A stretch of DNA of 35,851 nucleotides from a virus, in IMG/VR virus record IMGVR_UViG_3300027969_000236, positions 1 through 35,851 of that record; one strand, 5' to 3'. Below, piece by piece: positions 3,271 to 4,198 of this stretch. A program made the position numbers and the translations under genes. Under the pieces are notes generated by a model. It was not told where the DNA came from. It did no database searches and worked only from the letters and a program-made list of their open reading frames with translations. The stretch's first letter is position 1. Every line of letters starts with the position of its first letter.

Positions 3271-3421
3271 CTAAAAACCCTGTTTGAATTAATTTATGCT
3301 CAAGATTGGTTAGATTATTAAGGTCCCCCGTAACAATTAGGGCCTCTGTTATTTTGGTAACGGGTTGCACCATTCCAAATTTCACGTTGTTTAAGATTTG
3401 GTTTGCTTCTTCATAATTCAT
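3212..3421 (-). CDS. Small protein, function unknown
   Basis: A 69-residue frame with a good ribosome binding site (AAAGGAACTAAC before the ATG at 3421). The N-terminal half (NYEEANQILNNVKFGMVQ, then ITEALIVTGDL) has the look of a conserved phage early/middle protein in which a helix is followed by an AL-x2-TGDL turn, but I cannot name it. It is the first protein gene downstream of the structured RNA at 3440-3810. Confidence 0.55.
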   Translation of the reverse strand: MNYEEANQILNNVKFGMVQPVTKITEALIVTGDLNNLTNLEHKLIQTGFLDDTNRNFNPPWITGPSDIY

Positions 3422-3432
3422 TGTTAGTTCCT

Positions 3433-3801
3433 TTAGACATAGTTACTCCTAGGGTGATAAGAGGGATTCTTATCGGCCTTCTCCAGGTCATTTATTGTTT
3501 CTAAGACACAAATGGCCCCAAGTGCGCTGGACGGATTAATTCGCTTATACACAAAGGCTAGTTTCACCTGAGTTCCTTTGTGCTTTAGTAGTCGCTTAAT
3601 CAACGCTACTCGCTTTTTACTCTGGGGTGAACAGAGTGCGGTGTTTTCTCCTAGGCAGTCCATGCAGACTCTCTTCTTTCGTGTAGGGTACGGAAGTGTG
3701 GAAACAAAAAAAAGGCCACTAGAGTTAAGTACCTTGGTGGAAACCCCGTTGTTACAGGGCAAGATACTTACTTTAATGGCCTTCAATCTGTTGTTTTCCA
3801 C
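3433..3801 (-). CDS. Doubtful 122-codon frame across the structured RNA
   Basis: A frame with a GTG start and no ribosome binding site. It begins about nine bases after the predicted transcription start. The conceptual product has Cys47-x2-Cys50 and Cys58 but resembles nothing I know. The same DNA folds into a 28-pair hairpin ending in eight T residues, plus several other hairpins with complementary loops. I therefore judge it more likely to be an RNA gene than a protein gene, although an open frame this long is uncommon by chance. A dual-function RNA cannot be excluded. Confidence 0.25.
   Translation of the reverse strand: MENNRLKAIKVSILPCNNGVSTKVLNSSGLFFVSTLPYPTRKKRVCMDCLGENTALCSPQSKKRVALIKRLLKHKGTQVKLAFVYKRINPSSALGAICVLETINDLEKADKNPSYHPRSNYV
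3440..3705 (-). ncRNA. Structured extension downstream of the terminator-like hairpin
   Basis: Past the T run the minus strand keeps forming hairpins. Perfect stems are 3619-3624/3632-3637, 3550-3557/3575-3582 (plus one wobble pair) and 3456-3462/3468-3474. A bulged stem lies at 3587-3594/3604-3610, and an imperfect one at 3486-3498/3506-3517. The loop at 3626-3631 is perfectly complementary over six bases (GGUGAA/UUCACC) to the loop at 3563-3568, as in a kissing pair. The 6-mer CCTAGG occurs at 3448-3453 and 3650-3655 and could close the domain. If transcription reads through the T run, a folded RNA of about 370 nt would result. All of this was found by eye. Confidence 0.5.
3706..3781 (-). 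terminator. Strong intrinsic terminator in the leftward operon
   Basis: The long hairpin of the structured RNA (outer arms 3771-3781 and 3714-3724) is followed without a gap by eight T residues on the minus strand (3713-3706). By ordinary rules this would stop transcription arriving from the Cro-like promoter, after the replication-like gene and before rusA. The position is analogous to lambda tR1/tR2, so expression of the genes further left would need antitermination or another promoter. Confidence 0.7.
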
Positions 3802-3810
3802 GACAACGAT
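3706..3810 (-). ncRNA. Structured phage RNA of about 105 nt with pseudoknot
   Basis: Transcription should start near 3810, seven bases past a TATAAT box. The RNA would form a 5' hairpin (3803-3807 with 3790-3794, loop 3795-3802). A long rod follows: 3771-3781 with 3714-3724 (one mismatch, one wobble), 3760-3770 with 3726-3736 (one wobble) and 3754-3759 with 3744-3749 (one wobble, loop AACA). The 7-nt bulge at 3737-3743 (UUUCCAC) is exactly complementary to the 5' loop (GUGGAAA, 3795-3801), giving a pseudoknot. Eight U residues follow directly. No known RNA family is recognised. Possible roles are a regulatory small RNA, a polymerase-modifying put-like element, or a regulated operon terminator. 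Confidence 0.75.
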
Positions 3811-3816
3811 GAATGT

Positions 3817-3844
3817 ATTATACCGAGATTAGTTTCTTTTTCAA
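3817..3844 (-). promoter_or_regulatory. Sigma70 promoter for the structured RNA
   Basis: On the minus strand TTGAAA (3844-3839) and TATAAT (3822-3817) are separated by 16 bp, a near-consensus pair lying inside the last codons of the replication-like gene. The expected start is near 3810. It is among the best-matched promoters I see in the window. Confidence 0.7.
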
Positions 3845-4198
3845 TTCCTGTAATTTTTTTCTTATTTCTTCAGGCATTTCTATTGCCTCTTTCCTATCCT
3901 CTTCGATCTTCTTGAGTGCAGGGTCTTTGTATCCAACAGTCACCGTGATCTCCATCTCAGGAACCTCGGCTCCATCCCACCGTTCTTGATTTAAATAAAC
4001 AAGGGGAGCTGGAATAAAGTTACCGTCTGATTTACGCCACATATCTGTCGTTTTCAGCCAGGTAACGTGTTTATGTATCTGTTTCCAATCCTTGTCTAGC
4101 CCCTTAGACTTCCATTTCTTCTCACAAATAGACTTAGAGGCTTTACGTGGGCTTTTAGGCCACACTTCCCAGAACAGTTCAAAGCAACTTTTATCCAT
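3818..4198 (-). CDS. Replication-protein-like C-terminal domain protein
   Basis: The N-terminal 75 residues carry the pattern F-x2-FW-x3-P followed by KASKSICEKKW and FIPAPLVYLNQERWDG. This is the domain found at the C terminus of many phage O-like replication initiators and helicase loaders. Here it stands alone: the usual N-terminal winged helix is absent, and the rest is a charged coiled coil. It may recruit a host helicase to the phage origin; that is inference from domain and position, two genes after a Cro-like repressor. The start overlaps the preceding gene by eight bases. No helicase or polymerase is encoded in the window. Confidence 0.65.
   Translation of the reverse strand: MDKSCFELFWEVWPKSPRKASKSICEKKWKSKGLDKDWKQIHKHVTWLKTTDMWRKSDGNFIPAPLVYLNQERWDGAEVPEMEITVTVGYKDPALKKIEEDRKEAIEMPEEIRKKLQELKKKLISV

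Follow-up and report, generated by a model that had tools for sequence, protein, structure and literature searches.

A short structured RNA gene with a covarying loop–bulge pseudoknot in many uncultured phages

Described phage RNAs and the unit in the window

CI RNA, the immunity RNA of satellite phage P4 (P4 CI/C4 type), matures by processing of a longer transcript. It is a small structured RNA set beside replication genes and recognises two complementary sites that flank it, seqA and seqC, which causes termination (PMC4825925). The RNA analysed here is likewise small and structured, lies beside a replication-like gene and is linked to a terminator, and its recognition sequence is also complementary to two stretches of its own unit, one of them downstream. 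These two sites are a bulge in the RNA itself and a stretch past the terminator, to which the match is weaker. It also recalls IsrK of prophage Gifsy-1, which occurs in two forms, one short and terminated, the other made by read-through, with a further stable RNA downstream; the IsrK read-through product, however, is an mRNA for orf45 and anrP (PMC4825925), whereas here the terminator is followed by a structured non-coding zone. Unlike P4 CI, the present RNA has, judged by sequence, its own promoter and terminator and carries one of its targets within its own rod; no integrase was found in 15 phage records and no Rfam match for the RNA, which is not a member of the CI family.

Three further systems share parts of this architecture. 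The prohead RNA (pRNA) of phi29 keeps its shape while its letters change and has a covarying loop-to-bulge pairing, as does the present RNA, which nevertheless differs from it in lacking an Rfam match, in its secondary structure, in having its own terminator in the rod and in occurring together with terminase proteins. RydC combines a pseudoknot and a terminator in one small RNA, features also seen here; it is a host sRNA with a seed region that is bound by Hfq (PMC4337610), whereas the loop of the present RNA is hypervariable. GOLLD and ROOL are structured phage RNAs with covarying kissing loops, and in ROOL a covarying tertiary contact proved to be quaternary (PMC12286853). They measure several hundred nucleotides and often lie near tRNA islands, while the present RNA is about 100 nt long and ARAGORN reported no tRNA or tmRNA genes in the 65 loci scanned.

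The window, by which we mean the whole stretch of DNA analysed, is a 35,851-base IMG/VR virus record that encodes terminase, portal and head proteins, an endolysin, RusA and an Erf-like protein. The RNA (3706–3810, minus strand, as are all features below) lies between a replication-initiation-like gene (PHROG 9474; 3818–4198) and RusA-like nin-type genes, in keeping with the location given by a first-pass annotation of the sequence. Its sigma70-type promoter matches the consensus at 11 of 12 positions and consists of a TTGAAA –35 element (3839–3844), a 16-nt spacer and a TATAAT –10 element (3817–3822), with the stop codon of the upstream gene falling inside the TATAAT box. The 5′ end of the RNA is expected at, or a few nucleotides from, the 5′ hairpin P1 (3790–3807), whose GUUGU/ACAAC stem (3803–3807/3790–3794) carries the loop GUGGAAA (3795–3801). 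This loop is the 5′ strand of a pseudoknot, the 3′ strand being a perfectly complementary bulge, UUUCCAC (3737–3743). Rod P2/P3 with its cap hairpin P4 extends from 3712 to 3783; P4 itself (3744–3759) varies in length among homologues, and the base of the rod is the stem of an intrinsic terminator whose U8 tract (T8 in the DNA sequence) occupies 3706–3713. Directly behind the U tract, and thus past the terminator, lies a second UUUCCAC (3698–3704) that also complements the loop, and a preceding UUG extends this match to the loop plus the 3′ strand of P1. Behind it follows a structured non-coding zone (zone B, here of type B1; 3440–3697).

The promoter, 5′ hairpin, loop, bulge and T8 tract were thus all present where the first-pass annotation had placed them. 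Its count of 11 + 11 + 6 paired positions for the rod came close: we find about 24 pairs (10 + 3 + 11), interrupted by one A·C mismatch and a single bulged A, and six further pairs in the cap. The fold it had proposed for the minus strand is likewise borne out, with –44.2 kcal/mol for 3706–3810 compared with –22.5 ± 3.4 kcal/mol for dinucleotide shuffles (z –6.5), none of the 200 shuffles folding as well as the RNA. The features by which phage small RNA genes are recognised—a promoter, a structured RNA, a G+C-rich stem and a U tract—were all found in the unit. A lower stem below P1, termed P0, looks good in the window and in part of the homologues; as it does not hold for all of them, we do not claim it.

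An RNA family defined by covariation

The first homologues were met behind relatives of the upstream gene. A scan with a pattern built on the window's own pseudoknot letters returned 43 stretches, which were set aside because these very letters vary in alleles found later. A degenerate pattern applied to viral contigs returned at least 120 stretches, which together with the earlier loci amount to at least 96 distinct sequences. Because this pattern prescribed parts of P1, of the linker and of the rod base, some of the conservation seen there stems from the search itself; a second scan of the viral contigs was therefore run on the rod alone, without requiring P1, and yielded at least 75 further distinct relatives. 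The collected family thus has at least 171 distinct members in several gene contexts. A covariance model (R1) matched all 98 viral loci scored, on the right strand and with 58 to 110 bits. Each of 14 phage records held one copy of the RNA, and nearly all further weak matches in these records came from this copy read on its opposite strand.

The seven-nucleotide complement between loop and bulge, noted by the first-pass annotation for the window, turned out to be a property of the family. At least seven contiguous Watson–Crick pairs join loop and bulge in 94 of the 96 distinct sequences listed, compared with 3% when loops are swapped, and 40 different pairing sequences occur at this position in the 96-sequence set. 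The independent rod-only set gave the same picture, with at least seven pairs in 75 of the 75 sequences listed (13% for swapped loops); P1, for which these sequences had not been selected, was found in 73 of the 75. In alignment A3 (98 sequences), 93.5% of cells pair, compared with 80.2 ± 0.3% in shuffles, which leave the relatedness among the sequences in place, and with 42–50% when partners are slid. Two-sided changes occur in 26 of 38 pairs, and the covariation score is 0.424 versus 0.175. Since there are many different alleles, descent alone is an unlikely cause of the kept pairing. Few letters are conserved in A3 outside the search patterns, and the distance from the rod base to the bulge is nearly constant (mostly 19–21 nt, and 17 nt in a subgroup whose match has 9 bp). 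The loop–bulge pseudoknot is real: its shape is kept while its letters change.

We assume that loop and bulge pair within a single molecule; covariation fits pairing within and between molecules alike, so the two are not separable on this ground. By a rough estimate from A-form geometry, the 6–7 nt linker suffices for the hairpin to reach its own bulge.

Protein coding was considered for the GTG frame 3433–3801, and was rejected. The frame has no PHROG match, the homologues have lengths in each of the three phases, and most of the variation is compensatory; G·U cells outnumber A·C cells by 400 to 57, as expected for an RNA transcribed from the minus strand. The excess of G·U over A·C, together with the lengths in all three phases, argues that the sequence is not coding. 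Codon-like variation without compensatory change, which the first-pass annotation had named as the observation that would speak against an RNA, was looked for, and the outcome strongly favours RNA. The promoter is a family feature as well: a promoter with a score of 9 of 12 or better lies near the expected place in 59 of 75 non-redundant upstream regions, compared with 3.9% of shuffles, and the –10 box lies nearly always 6, 7 or 9 nt ahead of GUUG. We conclude that this short, self-contained phage RNA gene, which makes no protein and whose RNA of about 100 nt is structured almost throughout, represents a family common to many uncultured phages.

Consistent with the earlier impression that the RNA belongs to no known family, Rfam 15 at the gathering score returned no family for the whole window. 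At E values up to 10, the region 3380–3880 gave one weak 21-nt match, located outside the RNA, and none of 41 homologous loci gave a match on the RNA; a search of the open-licence literature found no description of it. The RNA is thus of a known broad kind, a phage-encoded structured small RNA, with an architecture that we cannot place in any known family, and the collection adds a widespread and well-supported phage RNA gene family where Rfam has none. Among the phage and plasmid records searched, only MW202484 (Manatee Spring) carries the RNA. The degenerate pattern gave 68 matches in bacterial and archaeal genomes, which we take as chance because none of the 68 scored with the covariance model. 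The same model found no RNA in 399 Burkholderiales genomes, a negative that, with no positive genome in the set, proves nothing by itself. No relative was thus confirmed in the bacterial genomes or plasmids searched; as uncultured hosts are poorly covered, this does not prove absence from bacterial genomes.

A second loop partner, exchanged alleles and candidate roles

The copy past the terminator in the window is not an isolated case. With one locus taken per loop, the duplex of loop plus P1 3′ strand with the downstream stretch reaches –8.5 kcal/mol, compared with –6.7 ± 0.32 kcal/mol for swapped partners, none of 5000 swaps being as good as the native match (z –5.5; z 5.2–6.1 by another score). 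Control positions 60–86 and 120–146 nt downstream showed no such effect, and the independent rod-only set gave z –3.7 (1 of 5000). The match is clear in about half of the loci, where it extends up to 12 bp, and weak or absent in the remainder. In four loci (L149, L155, L165 and L168) where about 100 nt are inserted, it is found at the edge of the following core and not at the U tract. Calculated for the read-through RNA of the window, the extended rod that this match creates has –49.7 kcal/mol, the P1 form –40.8 kcal/mol and the pseudoknot helix about –7.3 kcal/mol; since these energies are close when the costs of the pseudoknot loop are left aside, two nearly equal states may be available after read-through.

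Closely related phages differ at precisely these elements. Over the aligned stretch, three sister phages (L008, L009 and L010) agree in every letter as far as GUUG and, a few seam letters aside, once more where the core of the downstream zone begins; they differ in the RNA and the downstream copy. For the segments compared, identity is 98–99% in the gene and 97–98% in the downstream zone, but 68–87% in the RNA. Between L010 and L011 the gene is 100% identical and the RNA 67%. Where L008 and L010 differ by C to G in the loop, the bulge has changed from G to C and so has the downstream copy. These comparisons indicate that RNA alleles are exchanged among sister phages. The family as a whole offers a ready-made set of loop alleles with matching compensation, some of them in sister phages that show hardly any other difference, and with such a set at hand, self-recognition, conditional termination and RNA assembly become testable by simple swaps.

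Our preferred, if tentative, reading is that of an allele-specific, self-recognising control RNA that may act at its own conditional terminator and work like P4 CI RNA. RNA polymerase starting at the RNA's promoter would mostly stop at the U tract and release the RNA, and the loop would recognise its match in the read-through transcript of the same phage. Recognition might proceed in cis, with the P1/pseudoknot fold switching to the extended rod, or in trans, with the loop of an RNA from a sister genome pairing with the read-through transcript, and would determine to what extent the structured non-coding zone downstream is produced or matured. As recognition would need matching alleles, phages could gain by changing or swapping them. 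Covariation, the promoter, a downstream match specific to the native partner, the near-equal states, the exchange of alleles and the P4 precedent make such a control RNA the leading candidate, though a tentative one. Several points count against it: once the RNA is released, its bulge can keep the loop occupied, roughly half of the loci show a weak downstream match or none, and one locus (L164) keeps the RNA although most of its downstream zone is deleted. A role in the immunity of lysogens is unsupported, since no integrase or resolvase scored over the cut-off in 15 phage records. As an unlikely variant, recognition might be a matter of RNA only, the hypervariable loop distinguishing, when a cell is co-infected, the genome of its own phage from foreign ones and gating the exchangeable structured RNAs behind it.

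That L164 retains the RNA would suit a trans-acting structural or protein-binding sRNA, a scaffold or decoy for RNA polymerase, a ribonuclease or an RNA chaperone, for example, in which the pseudoknot would only hold the fold in place and the downstream copy would help to process the read-through transcript, for instance by RNase III. The single copy per genome, the strong promoter and the sealing of both RNA ends in structure would agree with this somewhat doubtful account, as would the scarcity of conserved letters outside the patterns, which means that shape is kept rather than sequence; yet a scaffold alone leaves unexplained why the downstream copy tracks each loop allele and why otherwise identical sister phages differ in theirs. 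Loop and bulge might instead pair between molecules and build RNA dimers or rings, like phi29 pRNA, or like ROOL and GOLLD with their kissing loops. Covariation fits this equally, the near-constant distance from rod base to bulge would agree with it, and both ROOL and GOLLD have documented kissing loops between molecules, with covariation that is conserved (PMC12286853). We nevertheless regard such oligomers as quite unlikely, given that the short linker, by the rough estimate above, dispenses with a second molecule, and that a packaging RNA is not required where the large terminase subunit is encoded in the window and the small one beside the RNA in other loci.

The first-pass annotation had listed a regulatory small RNA, a put-like RNA that modifies the polymerase and a controlled terminator as roles. 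Regulatory small RNA and controlled terminator both remain candidates, and because a second loop complement sits just past the terminator, a terminator-linked control RNA has become more attractive. The put-like role gained no support: the RNA does lie just after an early promoter and ahead of downstream sequence, as put does in HK022, but a cis element that lets RNA polymerase pass terminators is very improbable in a unit that has its own terminator and no Rfam match, where same-strand genes do not always follow the downstream zone and nothing was found that would make the polymerase read on. Loop, bulge and downstream copy form inverted repeats, which template switching can homogenise; the unit might therefore be a terminator only, its complementarity stemming from DNA-level repair of imperfect repeats and its RNA being without function. 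That pairing is kept in practically all sequences listed from both sets, that independent two-sided changes occur throughout the rod, that G·U exceeds A·C on the transcribed strand, that the promoter distance is near-fixed and that the cap varies together render this the least probable account of all.

The non-coding zone and other features of the contigs

Beyond what the first-pass annotation had covered lie the breadth of the family, the downstream complement and the structured non-coding zone behind the RNA. Such a zone is seen behind the RNA almost without exception (in about 90 loci) and mostly measures 200–450 nt to the next open frame by simple ORF calling. By similarity, the zones form three groups (65, 16 and 8 loci) and two singletons; that of the window resembles those of L011 and MW202484. 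Zone and RNA of the window together fold better than shuffles (z –5.5), with part of this contributed by the RNA itself. Since no promoter-sized gap follows the U tract, the zone is probably made by read-through, and in some loci it is not followed by same-strand genes. The family thus points to a conserved site at which phages keep exchangeable structured RNAs.

The only Rfam-known RNA among the zones is Betaproteobacteria-1 RNA (RF02932), a separate RNA that lies directly behind the studied one in six loci, all of one group (L122, 5235–5351; L128, 4206–4323; L091, 309–425; L175, 1112–1241; L154, 8304–8433; L182, 9692–9809). It also occurs in four of 300 Burkholderiales genomes, where the studied RNA was not seen just upstream of it.

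Individual loci depart from the common layout. Some have extra inserts of about 70–100 nt between the RNA and the zone core. In L164, the RNA (3285–3385) is intact and most of the zone behind it is deleted, while the zone of the related L158 is full. About 100–200 nt downstream of the RNA, L156 has an insert that looks tRNA-like by eye (motif GGGTTCGAAGCC), for which ARAGORN reports no tRNA. Elsewhere in two viral contigs, we found the int-alpA RNA (RF02996; L156, 47–114; L126, 9069–9137). In L126, moreover, a terminase-like protein (cluster 3) contains an inserted stretch that appears intein-like by eye, beginning with CIPGTL and ending with HNC.
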